A DNA stretch of 64,000 nucleotides from assembly GCA_937942875.1 (NCBI GenBank), contig CALEBT010000011.1, forward strand, positions 36,385 through 100,384, read 5' to 3'. The notes beneath the pieces are model-generated. The model worked only from the letters and a program-made list of their open reading frames with translations. It did no database searches and was not told the origin of the DNA. This DNA is from an uncultured Ignavibacterium sp. GTDB lineage: Bacteria > Bacteroidota > Ignavibacteria > Ignavibacteriales > Ignavibacteriaceae. Each line of letters opens with the position of its first letter. Positions within the stretch are counted from its first letter, which is position 1. This document shows positions 21,046-53,566 of this stretch, in pieces. The translations under genes and the position numbers were made by a program.

Positions 21046-24000
21046 TCATTTCAGATAAACAAGTTTTTTAGTTTGTTTAAACAATACTCCTTCAGAGTTA
21101 ACTTCACTTACTGATAATTGATAAAAATATGTTCCACTCGCTAAATTATATTCTGAAGGGTTAAAAAGAATTTCATAATTTCCTGCATTTTTATTTTCAT
21201 TAATCAAAGAGGCTACTTCTCTACCGAGAACATCAAAAACAGTTAATTTAACTGATTTTTCATTACTTAAACCAATTTCAGGAATGCTAAATTTAATTTT
21301 TGTAGTCGGATTAAATGGATTTGGATAATTTTGTTCCAAAGTAAATTGATCTGGTATTCCTACAAAAGCTTTAACCTCACCATAAAATTTATAAGTTCCA
21401 TCAAAATCAATTTGCTTTATTCTATAAATATATTCTCCGTTAATTAGATTTTTATCAGTGAAACTGTAGAAAGACATCTGAGAGGTAGTACCGTTTCCCG
21501 ATACAAATCCTATAGATTTCCAATCGTTTTTAATATCATCAGAAGTTCTTCTTTCAATTTCAAAACCTTTATTGTTTAATTCTGTAATGGTTGTCCAATT
21601 AAGGATTACATTATTTCCATTAACTTTTGCTGTTAATCCAGATAGTTCAACTGGAATAATATTTTCACCTCCGGAGAAACAAACTATTCGACCGTCTCTC
21701 GAGCCAGCGACAAATTCTCTGCTAAAATTGCCGTCGATATCTGCTAAATCAACAACGTGCTCAGCAGCAGTAGAATTGCCCCCAGAACCGAAAGCATAAT
21801 TGAATTTATTTTGACCACTGACACCATCAAAAATGTGCACGAGATTATTTAAGGATGCTGTTCCAACTTCCGGAATTCCATCTCCATCAAAGTCACTTAG
21901 AACATCTTTCCCAAGTATATTTCCTCCGGTTGAATTCTGCCAGATTATACTTCCATTAAGACCTTCAAGCATAAATACTGTTTGACTTATACCACTTGCT
22001 AAAATATCAGGCTTACCAGAATTATTAACATCAGGAACAACTCTCAGATCCTCAATAAATACACTGCCAATATTAGTTGACCAGATAAGAGAGCCATTTA
22101 AACCATCAATTACATAGATATTTCCGTTAATTGTTCCAACCAAAACATCAGAACTTGAGCTTCCACCAATATTAGGAATTTCCTTAACAGTCCAAGGTGC
22201 TCCATTGGTATTAAAAGTCCAAATAGGATTTCCACTTGCGTTAAATCCCATAACTTCATTTAATGTCCCAACACGAGAACCTACCGCACCACCGGCATCA
22301 GTTGAAGTAACCATATATTTTAATTTTTGTTGAGCAGATTGATCAATTCTCCAAATCTGCGAACCATTAGCACCATTCAACAAATAAACTGAAAATCTAC
22401 CTGCACCGGTTGATTCATTTCCACTTGCAGAGACTAAAACATCAGGTATCCCATCCCCAGTGAAATCTCTTTTTACATCTAATCCCATAATATCTCCATC
22501 ATCGGTAGTGGAAGGATTGCCAAATGCCCAAAGAACTGCTCCTGTTCTACCATTTAAAGCATAAACAAATTCATTTCCGCCAGCTGTACCAATAATAACA
22601 TCCTGAAAACCATCGCCATTTAAGTCTGATGCTATTTGCAAGCACTGTTCTTGTTCAACAGCACCAGTGTTGATTGAACCAAAATAAGTAGAATAAGTCC
22701 AGAGAATATCTCCCCAACCAGAACTATTACCATTAAAAACCATAGTCCAATAATTCTGAGTTGCTATTGCCATATCCATAACACCATCACCATTTATATC
22801 TTGAATCTTTTTCATAGACCTTGGATGATATTGCTGAAACGTTGTACCCGGATTATCTGGAATCTGACCTTGCCAGTAAATATTTCCAAACTCACGTTGT
22901 GGATTTACTCCCGAACCCTGCAGATACACAAATTTAACATTTCCATTTGATGCATTAGAATATACAAGTAATGAATCTGAAAAATTCTGAACCTCATTTG
23001 GATTAAACCAAACTCTGAAAGTATAACTTGCCAGTCCATTTATGTTTATAGGTGTCGTAATTCCTTGTAAGTAAAAACGATTTGATTTAAGTCTTAATGA
23101 ATCAATGGTTAAAGTTGATGTCCCTGCATTTGTAATTTTAAGCTCTCTGTACGAAGTAGAATTAGTTCTCTTTTGACCAAAATTAATTGATGTAGGATCA
23201 AATAAAATATGAGCTGCTCCGTAAACTCCACTTCCATTTAATAAGGTTCTGGAATATGGGAAATTGATATCATTATGATAAAACATAACCGAATCCTGAT
23301 AGATTTGATTAGCTGTTGGAGTAAAAGCAACTTTAAACGTATCAGTATTCCCAGGAAGAATTACTTTTGGAAGTGTAGTTACTAAAGTAAAAACTGAATT
23401 ACTGATTTTAGAAGAGTCTATAACCAGATTTGCATTACCATAGTTTCTAATCAAAATATTTTGTTCAGACGAGTTGCCAATTATGATATTGCCAAAATTC
23501 AAAGTTGTAGTAATCAAGTTAATTCCGGGAGTTCCGGAGCCTGATAAATCATACTTAAATAATTTTCTCCCTGAAGAAGCACCAACTGGTTCAGCCAATA
23601 ACCAGAAATGATTTCCATCCCAGGCTAAACCTCGTGGGTTTTGTCTTTGCCCAGGTATTTCCGGAGGGTTGAAAGAAAATAAAGTATCCTTAGTGGAAAT
23701 CTTCACTGCATAAATTTTATCAACTCCCTGAAAACCATCGTTCACCCAAAAGAGAGTATCTCCTTTAACTGCAATTCCTTGTGGTTGTAATTGAGCCGGA
23801 AATGTTAAACGTGTTGCTATCGAATCAACTATTTGTTTTGTTGTAGGATTAATTTTATAAAGTCCAACTCTGGAATCTGGCGAATAAACAGAGACCCATA
23901 AACCTGTTCCATCCCAGGCTGCACCGCCAAAATAAAAACTTGATCCAAAAATAGTTGTTGAAAGAATTGAATCAAGAACTACTCCGGTTGGACTTACTTT

Positions 24001-24315
24001 GAATAAATCGCAACGTGCAGTTTTTCTTTCAACATACCAGAAATTAGTGCCGTCAAAAGCAAGACCTTGAGATTCTCTTATCGAAGGATAATTGATAACT
24101 ATCTGCTGTACCTGTGTGCCGCTGCTGTTAACAGCATTTAAAATACCTTTACCATCTGTAGAAGAACTTGATGAAATCCAATAATTACCATTAGCATAAA
24201 CTAATCCATAACCGTTGCTGTAAAATGCTCCAGAGGGTAAATTAACTGTTTGAACTAAAGTCTGCGGAAAAAACAAATAATTGATAACGATTAAAAGCAT
24301 TAAAATTCTTTTCAT
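21046..24315 (-). CDS. Large secreted beta-propeller/choice-of-anchor D/FG-GAP protein with T9SS C-terminal sorting domain
   Basis: Signal peptide; two ASPM/HYDIN-like repeats (LNFGNIIIGNSSEQNILIRNYGNANL; INFGQKRTNSTSYRELKITNAGTSTL); FG-GAP-like DINGDGVMDMAIATQ, DLNGDGFQDVIIGTAGG, DFTGDGIPDVLVSASG; C-terminal FTLEQNYPNPFNPTTKIKFSIPE...GTYFYQL. Confidence 0.88.
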   Translation of the reverse strand: MKRILMLLIVINYLFFPQTLVQTVNLPSGAFYSNGYGLVYANGNYWISSSSSTDGKGILNAVNSSGTQVQQIVINYPSIRESQGLAFDGTNFWYVERKTARCDLFKVSPTGVVLDSILSTTIFGSSFYFGGAAWDGTGLWVSVYSPDSRVGLYKINPTTKQIVDSIATRLTFPAQLQPQGIAVKGDTLFWVNDGFQGVDKIYAVKISTKDTLFSFNPPEIPGQRQNPRGLAWDGNHFWLLAEPVGASSGRKLFKYDLSGSGTPGINLITTTLNFGNIIIGNSSEQNILIRNYGNANLVIDSSKISNSVFTLVTTLPKVILPGNTDTFKVAFTPTANQIYQDSVMFYHNDINFPYSRTLLNGSGVYGAAHILFDPTSINFGQKRTNSTSYRELKITNAGTSTLTIDSLRLKSNRFYLQGITTPININGLASYTFRVWFNPNEVQNFSDSLLVYSNASNGNVKFVYLQGSGVNPQREFGNIYWQGQIPDNPGTTFQQYHPRSMKKIQDINGDGVMDMAIATQNYWTMVFNGNSSGWGDILWTYSTYFGSINTGAVEQEQCLQIASDLNGDGFQDVIIGTAGGNEFVYALNGRTGAVLWAFGNPSTTDDGDIMGLDVKRDFTGDGIPDVLVSASGNESTGAGRFSVYLLNGANGSQIWRIDQSAQQKLKYMVTSTDAGGAVGSRVGTLNEVMGFNASGNPIWTFNTNGAPWTVKEIPNIGGSSSSDVLVGTINGNIYVIDGLNGSLIWSTNIGSVFIEDLRVVPDVNNSGKPDILASGISQTVFMLEGLNGSIIWQNSTGGNILGKDVLSDFDGDGIPEVGTASLNNLVHIFDGVSGQNKFNYAFGSGGNSTAAEHVVDLADIDGNFSREFVAGSRDGRIVCFSGGENIIPVELSGLTAKVNGNNVILNWTTITELNNKGFEIERRTSDDIKNDWKSIGFVSGNGTTSQMSFYSFTDKNLINGEYIYRIKQIDFDGTYKFYGEVKAFVGIPDQFTLEQNYPNPFNPTTKIKFSIPEIGLSNEKSVKLTVFDVLGREVASLINENKNAGNYEILFNPSEYNLASGTYFYQLSVSEVNSEGVLFKQTKKLVYLK

Positions 24316-38119: not shown

Positions 38120-39457
38120 CTAAAACTTGAATGGATAAACAAAAGATATTCTTGGCTCAATCCTTTTCTGTGGTTCGAAAGAAATTATATTATTATTACT
38201 ATCTCTTATTGGAGTAAAAGTCCAATTATATACAACAGAAACAAGTATGTACTCTATCGGTTTATATCCTAATTCAGTAAATAAATAAGAACGATCATCA
38301 AGTTTGAATATATCTTTTTCATCTCTGATGTTAATTTTGTCATAACCAGCTCTTAAAACAAACGAAACATTCTCTGGTTCAATTGATGTCCGAAGGTTTA
38401 ATATTCCACTATTCGGAGCTTTATCCAATCTCTGGTAGCTTCCAAGAATATCAAAAAGATTTAACACTCTGATTAAAAGTTCTCCGTAATAACCGTTTTG
38501 GTTTTCTGTAATTGAGTTAACAAGATCAACTTTAGTAATGTAAGAATTTGATTCAGCATTGCCCTTAAATCTTTCAATTTCATACAAAGAATTAAAGTAT
38601 GCTCCCAAATACTTTCCGTTATTGATTCTTCTTTCAAGTTTTGAGGATAACGATAACAAACCAGGACCATTAAAATTAAATTGAACACCAGTAGCAATTC
38701 CACTACCAAAATCTATCATTTTATTGTAATCAAAATAAAGTAAAATTTTTGTTGATGCAGTCTTCATTAATGGAAGACCAACATCAAAACCAATAAATGA
38801 AACATCCCCACCATCTTTTAGAACTTTAAACTCTCCGTTCGAATCAAATTTACCGCTATCTACTCTGGCTAAACTGTTAAAATCTGAAATCAGAGTTAGT
38901 CCTAATTCTAAATTACTTATTATTGGCAAATTCGAAGCCGAAGTAAATTGAATCGGAAGCACATATCCACGAACTCCCAAAATACCAGCTTGTCCGAAGG
39001 AGCCATAAATTGACTCAAATCCAAATTTTCCAAAATTTATATCTGCTATTAAACCAATGCGTCTGTTATCAAAAGTAGGACTATTATTATAATTATTCAT
39101 TATGGTTCCGTGTCCAAGAGAATAATAACCTAATGAGCCAAGTCTTATATAAACCGGTTCATCTTTCATTCCATATCTAAGATATCTTATTATGCTTAAA
39201 TAATCTGAGAATTCATTAAAATTCTCTTTCCTTAATTTTCCCGAAGGTTCAAAATCAAGAATTAAATCCAGACCAACTCCGAAGTTCATAAAAGAAATTT
39301 CTGGTTGGAAGCCAAATCTGTAATGAGGTTTTCCATCAATCCAATTAAGTCCAAATCCACCTGTAATATTTCCTTCATCAGGTTTAGGATAATTAAATGT
39401 TTGTGGAAAGAGTTGGAAAGAAATTATAGATAACAGAATAATAAATTTTATTTTCAT
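38120..39457 (-). CDS. Predicted outer-membrane beta-barrel protein
   Basis: Signal peptide; alternating aromatic beta strands; terminal KRIEPRISFVYPFKF with C-terminal F. Confidence 0.65.
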   Translation of the reverse strand: MKIKFIILLSIISFQLFPQTFNYPKPDEGNITGGFGLNWIDGKPHYRFGFQPEISFMNFGVGLDLILDFEPSGKLRKENFNEFSDYLSIIRYLRYGMKDEPVYIRLGSLGYYSLGHGTIMNNYNNSPTFDNRRIGLIADINFGKFGFESIYGSFGQAGILGVRGYVLPIQFTSASNLPIISNLELGLTLISDFNSLARVDSGKFDSNGEFKVLKDGGDVSFIGFDVGLPLMKTASTKILLYFDYNKMIDFGSGIATGVQFNFNGPGLLSLSSKLERRINNGKYLGAYFNSLYEIERFKGNAESNSYITKVDLVNSITENQNGYYGELLIRVLNLFDILGSYQRLDKAPNSGILNLRTSIEPENVSFVLRAGYDKINIRDEKDIFKLDDRSYLFTELGYKPIEYILVSVVYNWTFTPIRDSNNNIISFEPQKRIEPRISFVYPFKF

Positions 39458-39533: not shown

Positions 39534-40190
39534 TTATTTTACTATAACAAACTTTTGAGAATGTAAGAATTTCGTCCTCGAACTCAATAGAATAATATAA
39601 ATTCCGGAGGGCAGATTTTTATATCGAATATTAAATTCATTAGGAGGATTGGATACAATAAATTCTTCAACTTTTTCACCTGTAATTGAGAAAATTGAAG
39701 ATACAACTTCATTTATTGTATTATCAGAGAGATAAATATTAAGTTGGTTGGTCTCCGGAATATGATATACCACCAAATTTTTAGCATTCTCTTGCCTGTA
39801 TGTATCAACCGAGATAGGGAAATAATTTACTGTAAGTGTGTCACTATAATGGAATGTACCATCATTGTCAATTTGTTTTAATCGGTAATAATAGATTCCA
39901 TAATTCGGCAATGTAGTGTCAACAAACATATAATGTTTTGGCGAATTAGAATTCCCATTTCCTGGAACAAAGTCAAGTCCCAAAAATTGATATGGCGTAT
40001 CTGCCCGTTGAACTTCAAAGCCAAAATTATTTACTTCAGTTGCAGTTCCCCACCTTAAAAGTACACCGTTTGAAAGAATTAACGCCTCAAAATAAATTAA
40101 TTCAACCGGTAATATATCTTCTGTTTGAGCGTTAAAATCATTTACGAAAAGACTTAGCAAATAAAATATTAATATTAATAATTTTTTCAT
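39534..40190 (-). CDS. Minimal Fn3-like protein with T9SS C-terminal sorting domain
   Basis: Signal peptide; LPVELIYFEALILSNGVLLRWGTATEVNNFGFEVQRA...YYYRLKQIDNDGTFHYSD; C-terminal ISVDTYRQE...SIFSITGEKVEEF...LPSGIYIILL...QKFVIVK. Confidence 0.72.
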   Translation of the reverse strand: MKKLLILIFYLLSLFVNDFNAQTEDILPVELIYFEALILSNGVLLRWGTATEVNNFGFEVQRADTPYQFLGLDFVPGNGNSNSPKHYMFVDTTLPNYGIYYYRLKQIDNDGTFHYSDTLTVNYFPISVDTYRQENAKNLVVYHIPETNQLNIYLSDNTINEVVSSIFSITGEKVEEFIVSNPPNEFNIRYKNLPSGIYIILLSSRTKFLHSQKFVIVK

Positions 40191-43100
40191 CTTAAAACTG
40201 CAAGTTTTTGGGTTGTTGTTTTGACCTTTGAATCTTTTTTAACCACAAATTTATATATATATACACCATTACTAATCAAATCACCATCTTCATCCTTTCC
40301 ATCCCAATATATCTTATTAAAATTAGTATTTAATTGAGAAGGTAATATTTTAATTTCTTTTATTAATCTTCCTGCAATTGTAAAGATTTTTATGTATGCT
40401 TCTTCTGGTAATTGCGTTAAGATAAAAGTAAAATACGTGTCATCTTTAAATGGGTTGGGATAATTATATACTTCTAACAGTTCCACTTCCTGAGAAACTT
40501 TAAAGAATCTTTCAACTAATGGCTGATTAGGTATCCTTCCATAAATATCTTTGAGAAAAACTCTTAAATTGTGTTCGCCTGATGGAAGGCTTGTTTCAAA
40601 ATAAATATTTATTTTTCTTTCTATGGTATCATAATCATAATTTAACTGATAAGCATATTTTCTAAAACCATTAAGATATATTTGAATAGCAGAGGTATCA
40701 TCTACTGAAAACCAAACCGGATATTGAATTTCAATATTTACTTTGGAATCAGGCTCGACATAATCCCAATCAGATATTTCCTGACCATTAAATTTTACCC
40801 ACACAGAAGAATTTGATACAGAAGTTGAAGTATCTCTTTTAACATAAAAAGGTTTTAGAAAAATATTATTTGATTCAAAAAATTCATTTACAATATTAGA
40901 TGAATCAATAGAAACTCTAAAATTGAAATTTCCATATCCGTCATAAATAGTGTTCAAATATGAATAGCCAAAAGAAATTGAACTATCAGGTTGCAACTTT
41001 GTAACTAAAGAGTCTATAAGTTTAACTGATGAATTATCACTTTTTAATAAATCAATTTTAACATTAAAACTATCTGCATCTGATTTACCAACATTAAATA
41101 TTTTAGCATTAACATTTATAGACTGACCCTGCATTATGGTATCTTTGTTAGTGATTACAGTTTGGTAATTCACTGCTAATTCCGGAACAACATCAAAACT
41201 TGCCCCAAGGCTGAAAATTTCGGGCGATTCTTTAATTTCATTTGCGGTAAGTTTAGCAAAAATTTTGATTGCTGGATAAACCCTTGCATCTATGGCTGAT
41301 AAATCTAACGAATCAGATTGTGTAGAAAGATTAAACAATGTATCAATTTGCCCATTTGATTTTATCCCTAACGGTATAAAAGTAATGGATGAGTTATTTG
41401 GTTTGCTTGTTTCAAATTTTGCGTAATTCCAATTCTTTGCGAATTTCATCTCTGGAAAAACCACATAACCAGTATCATAAGTCACGACCTTAGACATTTC
41501 AACTGTTGCAACTCCGGCAAATAATTTACGATAATCTTCAGGCACAGTGCCTATTTCAGCTCCTTTTCTTCCTAAAATACACCAGCCTTCACGATATCTA
41601 ATACTATCTATATAAACAGAGCCGAGGGTTTTTATTGCATTTCTGGGAGGAGTATTACCACTGTAACCAAGAATATTTTGTGCAGCATCAGCGGAAATTG
41701 TCATCGCAATTAAAGTTCCATTAGGTAAGTTGTTTATATAATTTTTTAATGAATCGCTGACACCAGGCTCAGGAACTAGAAAGTAACGAATGTTAGAAAT
41801 ACTTAAATCAATTGAATCTATTATTGCAGTTGCAATTCCCCAATAGAAAGTATTCGGCAATATTTCAATTCCATTTCTAAGAATAGAGCCAAATGCACCA
41901 TCGTGACCCCCAGCTGATTGAATTTTTAGTATTAAATTTTCCTTGGATATCTTCCAGCTGTTTGTGATCGTATCAAATAATGTTCTTTCATATATGAATT
42001 TATTGTCTTCACTTAAGGGACTGTCAATAAAAATCTGGTATTGAGGTTTTTTTTGTATAAATGAATGTGTCTGATTATAAAAAGAACTGCTGTCATCGAT
42101 TTTAATTCGAAAATAATATCTTTTATTTTCTAATAAATTTAATAATTGAATTTGAGTCTTAAGTTCTTCAAAGTTTGCCGTAAAGCTATCATATTGAGTA
42201 AACTGTTCATCAAGGGATATTTCAAGCTTTATTTTTTCAGGCTTTTCTGGAATTTTTATAAGAGGATTGAGCACCTCAATTTTGTTCTTTGATGTATTAA
42301 ATAAATTTGATACTTCAATTAAACTTAGAGAAGTACTATTAACAATATAATTGAATTCAGCTATGTTGTCATCTTCATATATTTCACTAATCAAATTATT
42401 TGGGTCTAATCTAATTACTAATTTTCTATTTCCAATAAAGTTATTAACGGGAATGTTAATGATAATTGTATCCTGAAATTTAACTACCGGTATTGTTAGT
42501 GAATCTGAAAATGTCAAAATATCATTTTGAAAATCTTCAACTAATAATTCCAACGAATCCGCAGTAACAATTCCATAATTACTTATTATACATTTAAACT
42601 TTAAGGTATCAACTAAATCATTCGGTTGTTCAGTAAGTAAATTAATATTAGAAGAAGAAACTATAAAATTAGGTTTTTCTGGTAGTCTTAGTCCGATTAT
42701 TGGATCACCGAACAACAAATTACAATATGTAAATAATCGAGTTACATCGTTAATTCCAGATTGATTTAATTGCTGAATTTTTGATAACAAATGAATGTAT
42801 CCAATTCCTTTGACACTATCCTGAATAAGATTCTGATAAAATAATTTCGGGAAATTCAAGGATGTAGATAAAAATCCAAAACTCGAATTACCTAAATAAT
42901 GTATAGCCTGACCACTATTAGATTGTGAAACAAATAACTCTCCAAATGCATCCACATCAGGTTCAGCAAATTTTGCAGTAGAGCACCCAAAATCACTAAT
43001 TAATGGTAATCTGTCATTGTATTTATTTTTAATGTGTTCTACTTCACTTATTGAATTATCCCACGTTCTTGTTCCACTATGACCAATATATGAGATAAAC

Positions 43101-45580
43101 AATCCTCCTTCATCAATTACTCTTTGAACTTCTTCCAAAGTATAAGGGCCAAAATTTGAAGGAGGGTTAATTGTCTTGTAAAAATGAGTTGCATTACCAA
43201 ATAATGTTGGTGTTTTAACGTAATTATTCATTACAAAATTGTTGGCGGCGATTATCTGTGATAGCTCGTTAGGTTTTGTTGCATCTCCACCACTGAAAAA
43301 TATAAAGGACTTGTTGAAATAATCATATTTTTTTTGAAGATACTTTTGATGCTTCTGTAAATAATGGAGCACTTGCTCATTATTATTTGCAGGTATTCTT
43401 CCTATATACATTTGGGGAATATTTATGTTGCTATTATCCCACATTACATACCAAACATCACTGACGGGATTGCCAAAAGATGTAACTACATTTTTCTTCC
43501 TTGGAGTTGGAGCGGGTGTAACTACATCCTTATAATCATAATTAGCATCACCTATAATAGTCAGATAAGATGGTTTTGGCTGCACCCAGTTATTTGATGC
43601 TACCTTTAAGAATTGCCTGATTGTCTCTGCTTCCATCATTCCATATGAAAATTCATCATATATATCCTCATCAAAAATTAGTTCAGTGCGAACAGCATAA
43701 TTATTTTGAATAAAGTTTTTGTATTGTAAAGAAGAGCTTTCTAATATCTTGTTTGTTAATATAATATAATCCGCACCCCTGCTTTGGTTTCTAAGATTTA
43801 CAAAAAATTTTTTTTGCTTAAAAATTGGATTAGAAACTTTTGATACAGAAGTTATATAATATTGATCACCGCCTTGTACTGTGTCAATGAAAAAGATTTG
43901 ATAAGGACCTGAACCAGAGGTGGTAAAATTTATCACTTTCTTTAAAGTTGGTTTGATTTTGTAAATAATCAAATTATTTGGAGAAGAGATATTGTCAATC
44001 TTTACTATTCTGATGTTTTGTGCTAAACTATCCGGTACTATTATTTTAATCGAGTCATTTATAGCTACATTATACCGATAATAATCAATGTCAACCCAAT
44101 CAATCAAGGATTGATGAAAATTTGCAGTTGAAGGTAATCCGAACACTCTAACAGTGTTATTTCCTGATATCAGTTGAGATGAATTGTAGTTACCTGTGAG
44201 ATTAATAGTTTGTTTGTAATTATAAGTAACTGTATCCTGAGGAGTTGAGCTATTTAAACTTAATCCGTGCTTATGAGCGTTTGAGTTAACATTTGAAGCA
44301 TAACTAATCAATCTTACAATTACATTTACAGGAGATGATGGAACAAAATTATTTGCTTGAAATGTAAAAGATTGCGAACCGCTACTTCCAATAGTTAACC
44401 ACGTAAATGTTTTATTCTCCTGCCAGAAAGGTAACTGAACTCTTGGCGTAACCGGATCATAATACCATAATCTAACATCTTTTTCAAGATGTAATTTTGC
44501 AATATGTGATTTAAGAGTATCACTTGTTGATGATGGATTTTGATTAATTAACTGCAGTCTTGTTCCATTAGAACCGTCCCAAGTTAACCACACTACAGAG
44601 GTATCATTATAGCGATTTAAATATTGTATATAGTCCTGACCAATAGAAACTATATTTCTGTAATTCTGATAGGTGTAATTCTTTTCCGAATAGAATTCAA
44701 TATAATCAGTAGAGTCAAAAACATTATCATCCTCACCATAAACAAATATTGGCAATTCCTTCCCTTTAAAGAATATCTTGAATGTTTTTGGATTGATCAG
44801 GTTTGGGTTAACTCCGTAAGATAACAAATTACCGTATGTAATTTTGTAAATATTGTCATTAGGTATTGCAAGTTTAACATATTCCCTTGAATAATCAATC
44901 CATTGACCAGCTGTATCACTAAGTGCAATATTTGGATTAAATGAGCGATAATTTAGTGCCTCATCATAATTTATTATGAATTCTTTAAGTACTTCATCAT
45001 AAATAGATAAAGGAAGATTATTCACTGCATAATTATTACTGCTTTTTATAATATTTACTTTTATATCGCAGGAATCAATCAAGTACAAAGAGCGTTCTTG
45101 AAATGAATATTGATGAGAATTTAACTTGATAGCAACCACATAAAAATCTCTGATCCAGGTATATCCTAAAATTTCTATTTGTTGCTCTGGATAAATAAAC
45201 ATATTGGATAAAGTTTTATCATAATCAACTTCTCTGTATGAAATAATCGAATCAGCCTCCAGAAAAACTTCTGGATTTTTTTCAATCAGGACTTTTTCCA
45301 TAATTGCTTTAGAAATATTATCTAAAGAAACATTAACTTTGGATTCAGGAGGAATAGCTAAAAAGAAAGTTTTTGAAGGCAATTTCAATAAGCCTGGTTT
45401 TGATTCATCAATTGCTTCAATAAAATCAATTAGTTGATAACTTCCAACAGTTTTGGTTGTGAATAAATCAGGTGTTCTCTTATAATTTATTAGGAACTCA
45501 TTTTCATTTTTTTTTATAAATGTTTGTGCAAATATCGAAGTTGTCGATAAAGCTAAAAAAAATAAAATAAAATTTCTCAT
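40187..45580 (-). CDS. C25 (gingipain/PorU-like) cysteine protease with CARDB-like and ILEI/FAM3-like domains and C-terminal sorting domain
   Basis: RGADYIILTN...YDEFSYGMMEAETIRQFLK...YLTIIGDANYDYKD...GLFISYIGHSGTRTW (His834)...LISDFGCSTAKFAEPDVDAFGELF (Cys866); C-terminal VYNYPNPFKDDTYFTF...WDGKDEDGDLISNGVYIYKFVVK. Confidence 0.85.
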   Translation of the reverse strand: MRNFILFFLALSTTSIFAQTFIKKNENEFLINYKRTPDLFTTKTVGSYQLIDFIEAIDESKPGLLKLPSKTFFLAIPPESKVNVSLDNISKAIMEKVLIEKNPEVFLEADSIISYREVDYDKTLSNMFIYPEQQIEILGYTWIRDFYVVAIKLNSHQYSFQERSLYLIDSCDIKVNIIKSSNNYAVNNLPLSIYDEVLKEFIINYDEALNYRSFNPNIALSDTAGQWIDYSREYVKLAIPNDNIYKITYGNLLSYGVNPNLINPKTFKIFFKGKELPIFVYGEDDNVFDSTDYIEFYSEKNYTYQNYRNIVSIGQDYIQYLNRYNDTSVVWLTWDGSNGTRLQLINQNPSSTSDTLKSHIAKLHLEKDVRLWYYDPVTPRVQLPFWQENKTFTWLTIGSSGSQSFTFQANNFVPSSPVNVIVRLISYASNVNSNAHKHGLSLNSSTPQDTVTYNYKQTINLTGNYNSSQLISGNNTVRVFGLPSTANFHQSLIDWVDIDYYRYNVAINDSIKIIVPDSLAQNIRIVKIDNISSPNNLIIYKIKPTLKKVINFTTSGSGPYQIFFIDTVQGGDQYYITSVSKVSNPIFKQKKFFVNLRNQSRGADYIILTNKILESSSLQYKNFIQNNYAVRTELIFDEDIYDEFSYGMMEAETIRQFLKVASNNWVQPKPSYLTIIGDANYDYKDVVTPAPTPRKKNVVTSFGNPVSDVWYVMWDNSNINIPQMYIGRIPANNNEQVLHYLQKHQKYLQKKYDYFNKSFIFFSGGDATKPNELSQIIAANNFVMNNYVKTPTLFGNATHFYKTINPPSNFGPYTLEEVQRVIDEGGLFISYIGHSGTRTWDNSISEVEHIKNKYNDRLPLISDFGCSTAKFAEPDVDAFGELFVSQSNSGQAIHYLGNSSFGFLSTSLNFPKLFYQNLIQDSVKGIGYIHLLSKIQQLNQSGINDVTRLFTYCNLLFGDPIIGLRLPEKPNFIVSSSNINLLTEQPNDLVDTLKFKCIISNYGIVTADSLELLVEDFQNDILTFSDSLTIPVVKFQDTIIINIPVNNFIGNRKLVIRLDPNNLISEIYEDDNIAEFNYIVNSTSLSLIEVSNLFNTSKNKIEVLNPLIKIPEKPEKIKLEISLDEQFTQYDSFTANFEELKTQIQLLNLLENKRYYFRIKIDDSSSFYNQTHSFIQKKPQYQIFIDSPLSEDNKFIYERTLFDTITNSWKISKENLILKIQSAGGHDGAFGSILRNGIEILPNTFYWGIATAIIDSIDLSISNIRYFLVPEPGVSDSLKNYINNLPNGTLIAMTISADAAQNILGYSGNTPPRNAIKTLGSVYIDSIRYREGWCILGRKGAEIGTVPEDYRKLFAGVATVEMSKVVTYDTGYVVFPEMKFAKNWNYAKFETSKPNNSSITFIPLGIKSNGQIDTLFNLSTQSDSLDLSAIDARVYPAIKIFAKLTANEIKESPEIFSLGASFDVVPELAVNYQTVITNKDTIMQGQSINVNAKIFNVGKSDADSFNVKIDLLKSDNSSVKLIDSLVTKLQPDSSISFGYSYLNTIYDGYGNFNFRVSIDSSNIVNEFFESNNIFLKPFYVKRDTSTSVSNSSVWVKFNGQEISDWDYVEPDSKVNIEIQYPVWFSVDDTSAIQIYLNGFRKYAYQLNYDYDTIERKINIYFETSLPSGEHNLRVFLKDIYGRIPNQPLVERFFKVSQEVELLEVYNYPNPFKDDTYFTFILTQLPEEAYIKIFTIAGRLIKEIKILPSQLNTNFNKIYWDGKDEDGDLISNGVYIYKFVVKKDSKVKTTTQKLAVLR

Positions 45581-45611: not shown

Positions 45612-46340
45612 TTATTGTCTTGGATTAAATTTTAGATATAGTATCCTAAAAAAAAATAGAGGGCCTCCAATAATATATCTATTAAACAGACGCCTCGGCT
45701 CAAGCAAAAATCTAAAAAACCATTCGAGATTTAATTTTCTTAAAATTTTAGGTGCTCTTCTTTGATAATTTAGGAAAAAATTCATAAAGTTACCAACACA
45801 TATAAATACTCTATCTGGCAGATATTTTTTAAGTTCAAAAGCAAGTAATTCCTGTTTTGGAGTACCAAGACCTAGAAAAATATACCTTGAATTACAAATT
45901 TTTATTTTTTTGATCAAATAGTCTCTATTTTCTACATCAGAAAAACCATTGAAAACAGCTTCAACAAGTAATTTTTTCTTACGACATCGTAACAAGAATT
46001 CTTCTTTATTAAAATCTCCACCAACAAATACAACTGAATTTTTTTTCTGAATCAAAATGCTGATAAAATTCTCGTGTATTTCAGTTGAGTCAATTCTTTC
46101 AAATTCCCACTTATTAAATAACTTAAGTAAAATGTACAATCCTATTCCCTCTTGATAAAACATAAATTCATTAGTAAGTTCAATTAAAGGGGGATTTTTG
46201 TAAAAATTATTGAAAGAATTCTGATTAAAGTAAACAAATACACCTCCTTTGCCACTTTCATACATATCTAAATAAGAATTGATTATTTCAGCCTTTTTTT
46301 TAATAAGCTTTTCAATTAGCTGATACATTCCATTCGTCAA
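45612..46340 (-). CDS. WecG/TagA/CpsF family glycosyltransferase
   Basis: RYIFLGLGTPKQELLAFELKKYLPDRVFICVGNFMNFFLNYQRRAPKILRKLNLEWFFRFLLEPRRLFNRYIIG. Confidence 0.93.
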   Translation of the reverse strand: MTNGMYQLIEKLIKKKAEIINSYLDMYESGKGGVFVYFNQNSFNNFYKNPPLIELTNEFMFYQEGIGLYILLKLFNKWEFERIDSTEIHENFISILIQKKNSVVFVGGDFNKEEFLLRCRKKKLLVEAVFNGFSDVENRDYLIKKIKICNSRYIFLGLGTPKQELLAFELKKYLPDRVFICVGNFMNFFLNYQRRAPKILRKLNLEWFFRFLLEPRRLFNRYIIGGPLFFFRILYLKFNPRQ

Positions 46341-47799
46341 TTTTTACTAAGTAGAAATTACCAGTTTTTTTTCTAAATATTCCTCCATAAATAAATGGAG
46401 ACACCAAAATAATATTAGAATCTTTTTCTTTGATAAAATAGTCTTTAAACAATCTGAATCTATAAAATATTGAGTCATTTTTAATAGGATTTTCAAAAGA
46501 ATAAAAACTCAAATACTTAGGATTTTTTTTATCAAGATATTCTTTCAAATTGCCGGATTTAACATATTTATAATATTCATAACTGTTTATAAGTCCATCA
46601 CCGTTAATAATTCTTCTATCTGAGAAGAAAGATACTAAACCACTATAGTCAACCTGATAAATTACATCATCTGAAGAAGTTGATTGATTTATTCTCTTTG
46701 CAAATTCTAAAGCAGACTCATGATTGTAGTAATTATTTCTGAACACCAATAAGTAAAACAAGTTCATAAAAATTAAAATTGCAACTAAATACTTTGTTTT
46801 AATTAAATATTTTAAGACTGTGTAAACCAAAAGCAGAGCGGGAAATAAAGAGTATGTATAGTACCACTCTCTCGCTCCATTATGATTAAAAACAAAATTC
46901 ACAATTAAGAAAATAATACTGCTATAATAAATGTTTAATATCAGATTGAATTCCTTACATAGTTTAATTTTACCTTTGAAAATATAGTATAATGCACCAC
47001 TTACAATAATTAGTGCGAGAATTATAAAATCAATAGGATTGCCAAAAGGCGTTGGGAAAAACTTTAAATTACTAATTATGTTCTCAGATAATTTGTATTT
47101 ACCAGATATCAAAAAGAATTCCCCAAAAACTATTTTATTTATAATCAAATAAATTATTACTGAGAGGAAAGGTATAATTATTAGTTTATAAAAATGTGTT
47201 AATAATTTTTTATCATAAGTATAAATAAACACCACTATAGCAATAAAAGAATAAAAGAACAAATCAATTCTTGCAAGAAACAATAATGATAATGATATTG
47301 ATAAATAAAAATAATCTATTCTGTTGAATTGATGGGATAACAATTTTTCAATAAATAATAAAGTTAAAGTTAAAAAAAATAAAAATATCTGAACTTCTAA
47401 GCCGATTAGATAAATAAAAACGAATGGAATCAACAATAATGTAAATGAGAAATAATTATTCTTTGAGATTGAATATATTTTATTAAATCTGAATATAGTA
47501 TATAAGCATAGGTAACTAATTAATGTATTTAATATAAAAACTATTCTTAGCAGAAATTCTGGCTCTTTATTAAAGAATAACGATACTTTAAAGACCATCC
47601 AAAGTAATAATGTCCATAAAGGATGATAACCATTTGTTAAATTTATTCCGTCAAATGTTGAACCATACCCTTTTGCTAAATTCAAAGCTGTTTTTAGATA
47701 AAAATATGAATCATCACTTGTGTATTTAATTAAATACTCAATTGGAGCGAAAAACCAAATCAATATCAAAATTATAATATATATATTTACATATGCCAT
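46312..47799 (-). CDS. Polytopic membrane protein, glycosyltransferase-39/PMT-like
   Basis: DDSYFYLKTALNLAKGYGSTFDGINLTNGYHPLWTLLLWMVF near N-terminus, many TM helices; in polysaccharide cluster. Confidence 0.68.
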   Translation of the reverse strand: MAYVNIYIIILILIWFFAPIEYLIKYTSDDSYFYLKTALNLAKGYGSTFDGINLTNGYHPLWTLLLWMVFKVSLFFNKEPEFLLRIVFILNTLISYLCLYTIFRFNKIYSISKNNYFSFTLLLIPFVFIYLIGLEVQIFLFFLTLTLLFIEKLLSHQFNRIDYFYLSISLSLLFLARIDLFFYSFIAIVVFIYTYDKKLLTHFYKLIIIPFLSVIIYLIINKIVFGEFFLISGKYKLSENIISNLKFFPTPFGNPIDFIILALIIVSGALYYIFKGKIKLCKEFNLILNIYYSSIIFLIVNFVFNHNGAREWYYTYSLFPALLLVYTVLKYLIKTKYLVAILIFMNLFYLLVFRNNYYNHESALEFAKRINQSTSSDDVIYQVDYSGLVSFFSDRRIINGDGLINSYEYYKYVKSGNLKEYLDKKNPKYLSFYSFENPIKNDSIFYRFRLFKDYFIKEKDSNIILVSPFIYGGIFRKKTGNFYLVKIDEWNVSAN

Positions 47800-47801
47800 A
47801 G

Positions 47802-48878
47802 TTAAAGTAAACTTTTATAGATTTCTATTAAATTTTTCGTATATAATTCTGGGCTCATTAAGTTAGCTACTTTATCACTTAGATTTTTTGATATTAATTT
47901 CTCTGTTTTTTCATCCAATGATAATACCTTTTTGATAACTTCATTAAGATTTTTTTCTCCATAATTAAATAATAAGCCATTGCTCCCATCATCAATGAAC
48001 TCACTAATTCCACCTACATTTGAACCAATGAACAGAGTATTATAGATTCCTGATTCTAACATTACAAAAGGGAAAGACTCTAATTTTGAAGGTAATATTA
48101 CATAATCCGATATTCTGTAAAAACAACTAATTTCCTCCAGGGGCTTAATGAATATGAAATTTTTACTGAATTTTGATATTCTCTCTCTTTCTGCATCTGA
48201 TATGTCTGTAATGAGAATTAGTTTTATAAAATTATATTCAGAAAACAATTTCTTGAAAACTTTTATCATTATATCAACACCTTTAACCTTGTTCCACCTG
48301 CCTACGAACAGGAAAACTTTATCATATTTGCTTATTCCAAAAGAACATCTGTCAAAATTTTTATTATCATCAGGACTTATTTTTACAGGATTGTAAATTT
48401 GAATAATCCTATATGAATCAACTTTATAATTATGAATTATATTGTCAGCTACTGCTTTACTTACCGCAATTATTTTATCAGACCTGAAACTTAATAATTT
48501 AAAGCCTTTTACCAAGCTGTGAACAGTAGTTATTGTTTTAACACCAATCTGGTTTTTAATTAAATTTGATAGTAATTCTGGATACCGGTGATGCGTGTGG
48601 ATAATATCAATAGAATTTTTAATACAAAACTCTTTTAATTGCTTTAAATTTTCCTTTATAAAAAAAATATTTTTGAATCCTTTTTCAAAATTCATTAAAG
48701 AGACATTTACTTTGATATTCTCTAATCTTGTTAAGCTATCGCCTTTGTTAGTCAGGAAAAATAAATTAAAATCTGAATAAGATTGTAATTCTGATAAAAC
48801 GATAACAATATACTTACTAACGCCGCAGGTGTAATTAAAATCAGGAGAGATGTGTAATAAATTAATTTTTTTTTTCAC
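47802..48878 (-). CDS. Glycosyltransferase family 4
   Basis: HTHHRYPELLS, VFLFVGRWNKVKGVDIMIKVFKKL, YVILPSKLESFPFVMLESG. Confidence 0.9.
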   Translation of the reverse strand: MKKKINLLHISPDFNYTCGVSKYIVIVLSELQSYSDFNLFFLTNKGDSLTRLENIKVNVSLMNFEKGFKNIFFIKENLKQLKEFCIKNSIDIIHTHHRYPELLSNLIKNQIGVKTITTVHSLVKGFKLLSFRSDKIIAVSKAVADNIIHNYKVDSYRIIQIYNPVKISPDDNKNFDRCSFGISKYDKVFLFVGRWNKVKGVDIMIKVFKKLFSEYNFIKLILITDISDAERERISKFSKNFIFIKPLEEISCFYRISDYVILPSKLESFPFVMLESGIYNTLFIGSNVGGISEFIDDGSNGLLFNYGEKNLNEVIKKVLSLDEKTEKLISKNLSDKVANLMSPELYTKNLIEIYKSLL

Positions 48879-50010
48879 TTGTCAATTCAAAGTAAAGTTG
48901 TTTAAAAAAGTTGATAAAAATTCTTTTACTATACTTATTTTCTATTGCATTTTTGCCGTTATTACCAAGTTTTTTGGCTTTTTCAGGATTGTTGTATAAA
49001 TCCATTATTAATTTTGCACATTTCTCAATATCACCAAATGGATATACATATCCGCAATTTTCCTGTTCAATTATTTCTCTAATACCTCCAACATCGCTTG
49101 ATACAATTGGCACACCTTGTTTCATAGACTCCCAGATTGAAAGAGGTAAGCCCTCTGATAAAGAAGTGTACAGCACCAGATCAAAATGCTTTAAATAATA
49201 TTTTGTATTAGGTACATAGTTAAGAAATTTAACATTATTATTAACTTTCAATTTCTTAGCAAATGCTTTCATATCACCTAATAAAGGACCATCGCCAAAT
49301 ATGAACATATAAATATTTTCATAAGATTTATCCAATAAATATTTTAAGACACTCAAAGAAATATCAACTCTTTTAGTTTTTTCATTTCGAGTAATCATTC
49401 CTATCAGAAAATGTGATTGTTTTTTAGAAAGGATTATTTTTTCGATGTTTTCATCTATTTCCGTTTCAGTATCATCTATTGCGGTATTGTAATAATAGGA
49501 AAAACTACGAAAAAGTTGGGATTCTCTCTTTAATTCTTCAATATTATTTTTTGATGGAGCAATTACCTTGTTGCAACCTTTAAAGTAAAAAATAATTAAA
49601 TGAAAAATGTAAAGAATTATTTTTTCTATTAAGTTATAATAAATATTAAAAATAAATGTTCCGTGATAATTGAAGATATGCTTTTTTCTAAAAAAAATAT
49701 TTAATAGCCCAATTGTTATATAACATTTAGTAGAATGAGTCTGAATAATATCTGGATTATATTTTCTTATTAGTTTTATCGCATTGAACATAAATCTTAC
49801 AGGAAATTTTTTATTTATGTCTTTGCTTAAATAATATTCAATTTGTAAGTGATTCAACTTTTTTACCGCTTCTTCCCCTCCATCAAAATATATTATGTTT
49901 TTAACATTTTCATTTACATTTTTAAATATCATAAGAAGATGATTAAATACCCCATCAGACTTTCCTGTAATATTTTGAGCGAAATGAAAAATAATTACTT
50001 CTTTATTCAT
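48862..50010 (-). CDS. Glycosyltransferase family 4
   Basis: IIQTHSTKCYITIGLL, LVLYTSLSEGLPLSIWESMKQGVPIVSSDVGGIREII. Confidence 0.92.
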   Translation of the reverse strand: MNKEVIIFHFAQNITGKSDGVFNHLLMIFKNVNENVKNIIYFDGGEEAVKKLNHLQIEYYLSKDINKKFPVRFMFNAIKLIRKYNPDIIQTHSTKCYITIGLLNIFFRKKHIFNYHGTFIFNIYYNLIEKIILYIFHLIIFYFKGCNKVIAPSKNNIEELKRESQLFRSFSYYYNTAIDDTETEIDENIEKIILSKKQSHFLIGMITRNEKTKRVDISLSVLKYLLDKSYENIYMFIFGDGPLLGDMKAFAKKLKVNNNVKFLNYVPNTKYYLKHFDLVLYTSLSEGLPLSIWESMKQGVPIVSSDVGGIREIIEQENCGYVYPFGDIEKCAKLIMDLYNNPEKAKKLGNNGKNAIENKYSKRIFINFFKQLYFELTSEKKN

Positions 50011-51205
50011 TATAGAGTTCAGTGTAATTTTTAACCATAAATTCTAAAGAAAATTTATTAACTGAATTTTTCGCTTTTTCATTTATGCTCAAGTTTGAAT
50101 TCAATAATTTATGAGATATATCATCAAGGTCATTTATATCAACAAGAGTTCCATTCGTATTATCAATAACCTCTCGATTACCTCCATCATTACTTGCAAA
50201 AACATTCAAACCGCAAGCAAGAGCCTCCAAGATTACCATATCGAAAATAACTCTTTCTGACAATGAAATGTAAATATTACACATTTTCATTAACTTAATT
50301 ATATCAATGTTTGGAAGATAGCTGATAAAGTGAACATATTTACCTATTCTTAAAGTGTCTGCTAACTTTATTAGTTCATTTGTTTTATTTCCTGAACCTA
50401 TACAGATTAACACGCACTTATCCTTTCTTAATTTACACAAATTAGAAAATACTTTTAATATTAAATCAATATTCTTTACCTTAATATGTGAACCAACAGT
50501 AATTAACCTAAACTCAAAATTATTTAACCAACCCCATTTTACTGAAAATTCATCATCAATTTCTATGTTGTTAATTAAATTAATGTTAATCCCGTTATGT
50601 ATAATCTTTATTTGATAATTGTAACTGTTCATATTTAAATCTTCAAAAAATAAATCTTTTGCCGAAATACTTGGAAATGTAATTATATCTACAATCTCAA
50701 GTGTTCTTTTTTCTAAATTATTATATCTTTCATAAAGATTTAATAAAGGTCTCCTTTTCCCATAAAACTGAATCATATCATTTACTATTGAACCTTTCGA
50801 ATGTAAAGAAAGAATAAGTTTTTTTGTGCTATGAGGTTTTTTATGCAATTTGAATAGAGTCCTTATATCGTGTGAATGAATAATATCGTATTGTGAATTA
50901 GAAATCTCGCGGGTGATTTTATTTATTGCTTCATTGAAAAAATACTTTAAATATATCGTTGCTGTAAAAAAACTTCTGTATAATTTAATTTTATTAAATA
51001 TAGCTTGCGTTAAAGAAATTTTCTTCTCGAGGAGTAAATTTCTCATTCTGAGTTTAGTAAAATCCATTAAGCCGTTTTTCGACAGGAAAAAGATATAAAA
51101 ATCATTTTTGCTTATAGCCCTGATAATTTCGTGAATTATTTTATTGGGACCGCCAGAATTTTCATTTGGCACACCTGATAAAGAAGTAAAAAGTAATTTC
51201 TTCAT
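50003..51205 (-). CDS. Glycosyltransferase family 4
   Basis: YDIIHSHDIRTLFKL, LITVGSHIKVKNIDLILKVFSNL, IYISLSERVIFDMVILEALACGLNVFASNDGGNREVI. Confidence 0.9.
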   Translation of the reverse strand: MKKLLFTSLSGVPNENSGGPNKIIHEIIRAISKNDFYIFFLSKNGLMDFTKLRMRNLLLEKKISLTQAIFNKIKLYRSFFTATIYLKYFFNEAINKITREISNSQYDIIHSHDIRTLFKLHKKPHSTKKLILSLHSKGSIVNDMIQFYGKRRPLLNLYERYNNLEKRTLEIVDIITFPSISAKDLFFEDLNMNSYNYQIKIIHNGININLINNIEIDDEFSVKWGWLNNFEFRLITVGSHIKVKNIDLILKVFSNLCKLRKDKCVLICIGSGNKTNELIKLADTLRIGKYVHFISYLPNIDIIKLMKMCNIYISLSERVIFDMVILEALACGLNVFASNDGGNREVIDNTNGTLVDINDLDDISHKLLNSNLSINEKAKNSVNKFSLEFMVKNYTELYNE

Positions 51206-52308
51206 ATTAAATTTTTGGAAAGTAATTCAAATATTTTTAATGAACGAGCAATGACATGATGCATATCGTAATATTTAAATTCGGCTAATCGCCCGCATAA
51301 TATCAAATTATCAATTTTATTTGCTTCTTGATTATACTTTTTAAACAACTCCATATTAGAATCGGTTATAATTGGATAATAAGGGTCTCCATCTTTCACA
51401 GAATATTCAAATGAAACTGTTGTAAAATCTGAATCCTGTGAAGTGATTTTTTTGTATTCCGTTACTCTTGTAAAATCTGTTCCTGGTTCAACGTAATTAA
51501 CTACTGAAACTGGTTGATAAGATTCAACTTTAAAGTTTTTGTATATAAAATTTATTGATCTGTAACTTAATCGTCCATATTTATAATCAAAAAAATAATC
51601 TATCGGACCAGTATAAATCATTTTATCGTATTTAATTTCATTGACAACTTTTTTATAATCTGTGTTTAATACTATCTCAATGTTTTTATGACTGAGCATC
51701 TTTTCAAAGATTTTTGTATATCCTTCTTTCGGCATAAATTGATATTTATCAGTAAAGTAACGGCAATCATCATTCGTCCTTACAGGTATTCTTCCACATA
51801 CGGATGGCGACAATTCTCTTGGTTCAAGATTCCATTGCTTTTTTGTATAATGCCTGAAGAATTTTTCAAATAAATCTAAACCAACCTGATTAACAATTAT
51901 ATCTTCTGAATTTTTTATAGGATATCTTCTTTCTCTTACCTTTTCATAAAAAGCTGCAACCTCTTCGTCTGTTTTTAGATCAAGATTGTATAGTTTGTTT
52001 AAAGTAATTCTGTTTATTGGAATTGGATAATATTCATCTCCTATTTTAGCCAATACTTTATGCTCATAAGGTATCCATTCTGTAAATTGAGATAGGTAAT
52101 CGAAAACCTCTTTGCTATTAGTATGAAAAATATGCGGTCCGTATCTGTGAACTAAAATTCCGTATTCATCATATTCATCATAGGCATTACCTGCAATATG
52201 CTTTCTTTTTTCAACAATAATAACTTTTTTGTTTAACTGTGAAGCTATTCGTTCAGCAAGCACAGAACCTGCAAAACCTGCACCAACTATCAAATAATCA
52301 CATTTCAT
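51202..52308 (-). CDS. glf: UDP-galactopyranose mutase
   Basis: CDYLIVGAGFAGSVLAERIASQLNKKVIIVEKRKHIAGNAYDEYDEYGILVHRYGPHIFHTNSKEVFDYLSQFTEW. Confidence 0.97.
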   Translation of the reverse strand: MKCDYLIVGAGFAGSVLAERIASQLNKKVIIVEKRKHIAGNAYDEYDEYGILVHRYGPHIFHTNSKEVFDYLSQFTEWIPYEHKVLAKIGDEYYPIPINRITLNKLYNLDLKTDEEVAAFYEKVRERRYPIKNSEDIIVNQVGLDLFEKFFRHYTKKQWNLEPRELSPSVCGRIPVRTNDDCRYFTDKYQFMPKEGYTKIFEKMLSHKNIEIVLNTDYKKVVNEIKYDKMIYTGPIDYFFDYKYGRLSYRSINFIYKNFKVESYQPVSVVNYVEPGTDFTRVTEYKKITSQDSDFTTVSFEYSVKDGDPYYPIITDSNMELFKKYNQEANKIDNLILCGRLAEFKYYDMHHVIARSLKIFELLSKNLI

Positions 52309-53566
52309 TTTTCTTAAAAGATTTTTTATAAAATATATACATTAAAAAACTTACATAAATTTCAATTGATAATGTTCCAACTGCTGTTCCTATTTCTTTA
52401 AATAAACTTGTTAGATTATAAACTACTATTAAACTAAGAAATGCTGAAGTAACAACCACAAATAAAAATTTATTATCTTCTTTCATAGTTAATAAAAACT
52501 GAATTCCATAAATATTACTTATTGAAATTATAAAAGGAAGCCAGCTCAATATTTTTAGGATCACCACAGTTTCAGCATACTGTTCACCCAGAATAATCAT
52601 TACTATTTCTTTAGCAAATATGAATGCAAATAATGAAATTGAAAACATCGGTATAATTTGAAATTTAATTAACTTTTTTTTGAAAATAAGAAAAGATTCA
52701 GATGAATGATTATATAAGTAATTCATTCTGGGGAAAACGCTTTGAGATATTGGATTCAATAGCCCCTGTATGGCATATCTAATCTTATCCGCAGCTGAGT
52801 AGATACCAACCAGGGTTTCATTTGTCAATGCTCCAAGAATTATAATATTTGTAGTTGTGTAAAAATTTATAGATAATGTTGATAAAAATAATTTCCATCC
52901 TACTTTTAACTGATTGAATATATCTGATAAATTAACCGTAGTTATTGAAATCCTGGCAAGCTTAAATCCATAATAAAATGAAAGCATTCCAACTAATAAT
53001 TGAACAAAACTTATTATTAAAGCATATAATATTAAATCGGATGAACATTTTACAAAAATGAAAATTAAAATAACTCCCGTTGATTTAGGAACTAAATTAA
53101 TTAATGCCAGTAGCTTTGTTTTCTCCAGTCCTTGATAAAACCATTGAACGTAGAATATATTACCCAGAACAAATAGAAACAGTATTATAATTAAAGTCAA
53201 ATAGTTTTTTAGTGAACTAATAAATAAAATAATTGTCAAAAAAATTATTCCGGATAAAAGAAGTAAAATAAGTTTGCTGTAAAGAACCGAGAAGAAAGTT
53301 TTAGATAAAAAAGCAGTATTATTTCTGTTAACAGATACCTCACGAACTGCAGTTAAATTAAATCCATAATCGGTTATAATAATAAAATAATTTATAATTG
53401 CTAAAGCAAAACTTATAATTCCATAGTTAGCAGGTCCCAATACTCTAACTACATAAGGTAAAGTAATAAGTGGGATTAAATAGTTTATAAACTGGACAAC
53501 TGAAAGTGAACCAATATTTGATAATAAAACTTTATTATTCTGTATTTTTTCTCTGAGATTTACCAC
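52298..53566 (-). CDS. wzx: Polysaccharide flippase (Wzx/RfbX, MATE-like)
   Basis: NIGSLSVVQFINYLIPLITLPYVVRVLGPANYGIISFALAIINYFIIITDYGFNLTAVREVSVNR. Confidence 0.92.
   Translation of the reverse strand: MVNLREKIQNNKVLLSNIGSLSVVQFINYLIPLITLPYVVRVLGPANYGIISFALAIINYFIIITDYGFNLTAVREVSVNRNNTAFLSKTFFSVLYSKLILLLLSGIIFLTIILFISSLKNYLTLIIILFLFVLGNIFYVQWFYQGLEKTKLLALINLVPKSTGVILIFIFVKCSSDLILYALIISFVQLLVGMLSFYYGFKLARISITTVNLSDIFNQLKVGWKLFLSTLSINFYTTTNIIILGALTNETLVGIYSAADKIRYAIQGLLNPISQSVFPRMNYLYNHSSESFLIFKKKLIKFQIIPMFSISLFAFIFAKEIVMIILGEQYAETVVILKILSWLPFIISISNIYGIQFLLTMKEDNKFLFVVVTSAFLSLIVVYNLTSLFKEIGTAVGTLSIEIYVSFLMYIFYKKSFKKNEM

Follow-up and report, generated by a model that had tools for sequence, protein, structure and literature searches.

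A GG (ILEI/FAM3-type) domain within a PorU2-like C25 protein encoded beside a polysaccharide operon in Ignavibacterium

Introduction

GG domains have been described for animals (PMC10276149) and for phages (PMC9437275). The stem of POMGnT1 contacts beta-GlcNAc through Arg129, Asp179 and Arg207, FAM3C and FAM3A bind GlcNAc as well, and Fam3L1 of C. elegans is a GG domain without two of the three POMGnT1 contact residues (PMC9802357). The GG/POMGnT1-stem-like domains of phages, such as T4 gp35 and Tal CBM_1 of streptococcal phage TP-778L, are carbohydrate-binding modules (PMC9437275). In the T9SS of Porphyromonas gingivalis, PorZ binds A-LPS and passes it to the PorU sortase, providing an experimental precedent for the model considered below (PMC8545088).

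Here we analyze a 64,000-nucleotide stretch of DNA from an uncultured Ignavibacterium sp. (contig CALEBT010000011.1), referred to as the window. A sequence-only reading had proposed that a 1797-aa ORF in it carries an ILEI/FAM3-like domain fused to a gingipain/PorU-like enzyme between the protease and the sorting domain, possibly serving glycan recognition. In our literature search we found no paper linking GG domains to C25 enzymes or T9SS, no mention of PorU2 or PF15711, and nothing joining T9SS with WecG.

A GG domain in the 1797-aa ORF

The ORF lies at 40187..45580 on the minus strand, and the peptides on which the initial proposal was based are encoded within it (ILKIQSAGG at 41906..41932, GRKGAEIG at 41549..41572 and EDYRK at 41525..41539). 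Pfam ILEI (PF15711) matches residues 1248-1341 (41558..41839, minus strand) at 51.9 bits (E 1.1e-13), well above the cut-off of 27 that defines the family, and a search with the GG segment by itself returned ILEI as the sole Pfam match (54.9 bits). Alignment with relatives gives a somewhat wider domain comprising residues 1217-1364 (41489..41932, minus strand). The ILEI search yielded no match above the cut-off in 14 control genomes and a single one, this ORF, in the whole source genome; this rules out a GG family spread across the genome of this organism, as two further weak matches (E 0.005 and 0.019) are noise-like.

When the window domain was searched as a single sequence against PDB, FAM3B ranked first (E 0.0019), while matches to capsid VP1 were due to chance and vanished once a profile was used. 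That profile, built from 68 diverse bacterial GG domains and no animal sequences, retrieved FAM3B (E 1.3e-26), FAM3C (8.8e-26), POMGnT1 (5.9e-23), FAM3A (7.3e-23) and TMEM2 (4.9e-21), with the best unrelated entry reaching only E 0.0024. An AlphaFold model of the GG domain, calculated from 11 sequences (the window copy and relatives), is of moderate confidence, with a mean pLDDT of 57 and values of about 65-84 for most of the core. The top 21 PDB chains found with this model by Foldseek all belong to FAM3, POMGnT1 or TMEM2, with a probability of 1.00 and E-values between 2e-5 and 1e-3; most superimpose at about 3 A across roughly 130 columns. No other fold scores better than E 0.3. The moderate model is concordant with the independent sequence profile.

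Considering the Pfam score, the PDB profile and the predicted fold together, homology of residues 1217-1364 to GG (ILEI/FAM3) domains is near-certain. The sequence-only reading had suggested a Pfam ILEI search, a comparison with FAM3 structures, a structural superposition and a survey of C25 proteins as ways of checking its domain assignment, and the assignment held in each: in the Pfam score, in the bacterial profile (E 1e-26 to 5e-21 for FAM3, POMGnT1 and TMEM2), in the matching fold of a moderate-confidence model, and in the presence of GG across relatives, class and phylum described below. The domain is not a member of the FAM3 cytokine family, which comprises free-standing secreted proteins with FAM3 disulfides, because it is part of a 1797-aa enzyme. 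A single Cys can be seen in residues 1217-1364.

Architecture and class of the C25 enzyme

The protein begins with a probable signal peptide, MRNFILFFLALSTTSIFAQ, identified by inspection (45524..45580; this and all following features of the protein are on the minus strand), followed by a Propeptide_C25-like region at residues 43-207 (44960..45454), where PF08126 gives a weak match of 24.7 bits against a cut-off of 22. The Peptidase_C25 catalytic domain spans residues 605-962 (42695..43768; PF01364, 176.7 bits). The GG domain comes next, then a CARDB Ig-like domain at residues 1466-1574 (40859..41185; PF07705, 39.7 bits) and a probable C-terminal FlgD-like, T9SS-type sorting domain at about residues 1703-1797 (40190..40474), so that the order of protease, GG and sorting domain had been read correctly. 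The protein is a candidate for T9SS secretion: a probable leader and a FlgD-like C-terminus are visible, the latter from a C-terminal pattern common to relatives and a sub-threshold FlgD_ig match of just 17.6 bits. The catalytic residues His834 (YIGHSGTRTW, 43079..43081) and Cys866 (DFGCSTAKF, 42983..42985) are both retained in 72/72 aligned proteins and, with the PF01364 score, place the protein in Peptidase C25.

The PorU2 model NF052324, which NCBI names as a putative T9SS sortase, matches about 850 residues at 376.6 bits, below its equivalog cut-off of 450, and the PorU model NF033707 gives 261.5 bits, below its cut-off of 420; under NCBIfam cut-offs the protein is PorU2-like and not formally PorU2. 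The label gingipain/PorU-like thus needs refinement, as the canonical PorU of the genome is a separate gene without GG, scoring 988 bits against NF033707, which implies that the window protein is a second sortase-like enzyme and not PorU. GG is likewise absent from the third C25 protein of the genome. The genome also encodes SprA and PorZ, and its PorV2-like barrels score below the cut-off. The sequence of the window protein is compatible with transpeptidation or plain proteolysis, and transpeptidase activity is therefore a prediction. An AlphaFold model of residues 596-1400, covering C25 and GG, has a pLDDT of 46 and a pTM of 0.32, values at which the geometry of GG and active site is not readable.

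Distribution and inheritance of the C25-GG architecture

ILEI occurs in 42/60 relatives; at class level 153/247 genomes have it, and at phylum level 92/397. These counts rule out a private fusion in this genome. The ORFs bearing it are mostly about 1600-2400 aa long, and at the fetched loci they are C25 proteins homologous lengthwise to the window protein, in which GG follows C25 at a comparable spacing. By our reading of two phylum tables, full-length class-level PorU2-like genes above about 300 bits all carry ILEI too. Judged from these sequences, GG has a fixed place in a subfamily of PorU2-like C25 proteins that extends across families of the class Ignavibacteria; the proposed fusion stands insofar as GG is inside a C25 protein, as a conserved module instead of a one-off event. 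Domain loss is not favoured as the explanation for the absence of GG from some relatives, because genomes without the domain are missing the strong PorU2-like gene as a whole. One example is G005, a closed genome from this genus, which shows PorU-level matches only.

Canonical PorU2 proteins of other families contain, in most cases examined, a diverged GG domain at residues of about 1070-1230 that Pfam ILEI misses; E-values there are approximate, owing to the small database, and no ORF outside the PorU2 family scored below 1 for GG at these loci. Across 72 proteins, the pairwise distances in C25 and in GG show a strong correlation (Mantel r 0.86, with the highest of 999 permutations reaching 0.22), and the median identity is 22% between GG domains versus 28% for C25. 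Such a correlation would be predicted for an architecture that is old and has been passed on vertically.

Some loci depart from this layout. Three C25 proteins of about 2400 aa have two GG domains after the protease (L047:169-7362, L068:8914-16092 and L069:6952-14112), and three others have an extra GG-like domain at about residues 540-700 in addition to one near 1340-1540 (L076:5202-11144, L078:5395-11202 and L079:7761-12692). Paralogous C25-GG genes adjoin each other at seven loci (L061, L065, L067, L070, L071, L072 and L084), and up to five ILEI matches occur in some genomes. In genome G277, a 585-aa ORF (L048:5994-7748) fuses GG/ILEI (78.7 bits) to a phosphatidylserine decarboxylase domain without C25, and its R-D-R triad is intact.

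Sugar-contact residues

At the positions of the POMGnT1 triad, the window copy has Trp1247 for Arg129, Ala1297 (followed by Asp1298) for Asp179, and Arg1330 for Arg207. One of the three GlcNAc contacts is thus retained, so that the ligand is probably not GlcNAc; the triad is not required for family membership. Of the three contacts, Arg207 is the best conserved across about 111 bacterial GG domains, with 79 retaining it; 61 retain Asp179 and 33 retain Arg129, in whose place 24 have Trp. This Trp is invariant among close relatives of the window copy. The full triad occurs in 26 of these bacterial domains, implying that some members may bind like POMGnT1. For the branch of the window protein, a changed sugar specificity is plausible and a loss of sugar binding possible.

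Gene neighbourhood and polysaccharide operon

Directly upstream of the C25-GG gene, on the same minus strand as all genes of this operon, lies a WecG/TagA/CpsF-family glycosyltransferase gene (45612..46340; PF03808, 106.7 bits; TIGR00696, 91.9 bits), the only copy found in the source genome, which is 71% complete. It is followed upstream by genes for a 495-aa protein with no Pfam or NCBIfam match (46312..47799), three GT4-type glycosyltransferases (47802..51205; PF00534), a UDP-galactopyranose mutase (51202..52308; PF03275, 242.6 bits) and a Wzx-type polysaccharide flippase (52298..53566; PF01943, 170.1 bits). Directly downstream, also on the minus strand, a small T9SS-cargo-like protein with a Por_Secre_tail is encoded (39534..40190; PF18962, 32.8 bits); such a protein takes this position in 11/55 relatives. 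Further along, the window encodes a 445-aa protein, possibly an outer-membrane barrel with a weak NCBIfam match, that is often found downstream of C25-GG in relatives (38120..39457), and a 1089-aa protein with HYDIN/ASH-like Ig domains and FG-GAP/PQQ-type beta-propeller repeats (21046..24315).

Across loci, the gene immediately upstream of C25-GG is of the WecG type in 25/61, and many of the remaining upstream neighbours are other glycosyltransferases, sugar epimerases or O-antigen ligase-type proteins. The gap to the upstream gene has a median of 36.5 bp, with both genes on the same strand in 52/62 cases. The C25-GG gene is usually the last of a polysaccharide operon. WecG homologues lie near GG genes in at least nine families; 24/57 GG loci have one, compared with 0/40 control loci taken from these genomes (p 3e-7). 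For a set of six polysaccharide genes, at least one was found at 30/57 versus 1/40 (p 3e-8). Both p-values overstate independence, given the relatedness of the loci and the hand-picking of control positions at round coordinates.

The polysaccharide link is absent at the genome's own PorU locus, and the six polysaccharide queries gave no match at canonical PorU2 loci, where PorU2 genes directly follow PorV2 (NF052325) in several families (L151-L166), apparently forming a second attachment module. The operon link is therefore a feature of the Ignavibacteria-class branch and not general to C25.

Discussion

The reading that we prefer, with a probability of roughly 45%, is that the window protein is a T9SS surface transpeptidase whose GG lectin module reads the glycan made by the adjoining operon and joins cargo to it. 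The PorU2-like C25 transpeptidase would be exported by T9SS to the cell surface, distinct from canonical PorU, while Wzx, UDP-galactopyranose mutase, the GT4 enzymes and the WecG-type enzyme would produce a surface polysaccharide. GG, with its FAM3/POMGnT1-stem fold, would serve to recognise carbohydrate and would position this glycan beside the Cys-His site; the enzyme would cleave the C-terminal signal off particular T9SS cargo and attach the C-terminus thus exposed to an amino group of the glycan. A single polypeptide would thereby perform the tasks of PorZ (glycan binding) and PorU (transpeptidation) of P. gingivalis, and the predicted enzyme, with its built-in sugar reader, may anchor proteins to a specific surface glycan, the identities of acceptor and cargo being part of the prediction. 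This lectin-sortase model draws on the GG homology, the invariant His834 and Cys866, the presence of T9SS and the WecG/polysaccharide linkage, as well as on GlcNAc binding by POMGnT1 and FAM3, the 26 bacterial triads and the PorZ-PorU precedent. Counting against it are the window triad, one-third kept, the canonical PorU2 proteins without glycan genes, and the PorZ of the genome, which makes a built-in glycan reader not strictly needed. The glycan-recognition idea of the sequence-only reading accordingly gains from the adjoining operon and loses from the replaced contacts.

The same replaced contacts, degraded in many family members, would suit a GG domain that docks the enzyme to a PorV2/PorQ-like outer-membrane barrel or to cargo, sugar binding having been lost or never present. 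FAM3 proteins serve as secreted signalling proteins, and GG is retained in canonical PorU2 proteins that adjoin PorV2 and not glycan genes, both in keeping with protein-protein contacts; however, docking would leave the strong WecG/polysaccharide linkage without explanation and has to accommodate the 26 bacterial copies with all three sugar contacts, and we regard it as rather unlikely. The linkage to the cell's own polysaccharide synthesis also argues against a secreted gingipain-like protease that uses GG for targeting or adhesion to environmental or host-like glycoproteins, comparable to carbohydrate-binding modules of exoenzymes. C25 is a protease family, and CARDB and Ig-like repeats fit a surface adhesin-protease, but the PorU2 model extends over about 850 residues, beyond the catalytic core, making this explanation improbable. 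Least probable, with a very small chance of being correct, is a ligand-free spacer kept by descent in the PorU2-like subfamily. The lower identity of GG relative to C25 would agree with a spacer, whereas the many invariant GG positions in close relatives, the retention over long divergence and the repeated duplication within proteins would not.

The lectin-sortase model can be extended, more tentatively, to a widespread group of PorU2-like sortases in which the in-chain GG would choose the acceptor, each enzyme being matched to the polysaccharide of its own operon. If so, several protein-to-glycan anchoring systems could run in parallel in one cell, and the animal FAM3/POMGnT1 fold would have old bacterial relatives that couple proteins to sugars. 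Should GG read the anchor glycan, this would explain the choice of acceptor by a second sortase and give the uncharacterised PorU2 enzymes a function; the fold, still of unclear role in FAM3 proteins, would also gain relatives in bacteria. The finding is open to direct test, as the isolated domain can be applied to a glycan array and the neighbouring operon is defined. Its newness is in recognition and context, involving neither a new fold nor a new enzyme class; given detection by Pfam's own model, InterPro very probably holds the combination of C25 and GG already.

Comparison with known systems

With FAM3B, FAM3C (ILEI), the POMGnT1 stem and the GG domains of TMEM2/CEMIP, the window domain has fold and family in common, but it is embedded in a C25 enzyme and two of the three POMGnT1 sugar contacts are replaced. 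Phage T4 gp35 and TP-778L Tal CBM_1 have the same fold in tail proteins, not enzymes; in sequence, the window GG gave no significant phage match, the PHROG long-tail-fibre connector family being weak at E 0.073. PorU2 (NF052324) resembles the window protein over 850 residues and has a diverged GG in the same place, whereas the window protein scores below the PorU2 cut-off (376.6 < 450) and adjoins glycan genes where canonical PorU2 adjoins PorV2. PorU of P. gingivalis shares the C25 dyad and, probably, the T9SS-type C-terminal domain, along with the proposed coupling of cargo to a surface glycan. There, the glycan is delivered by a separate protein, PorZ (PMC8545088), whereas the window protein carries a GG domain of its own, in a genome that also encodes a PorU without GG and a PorZ.
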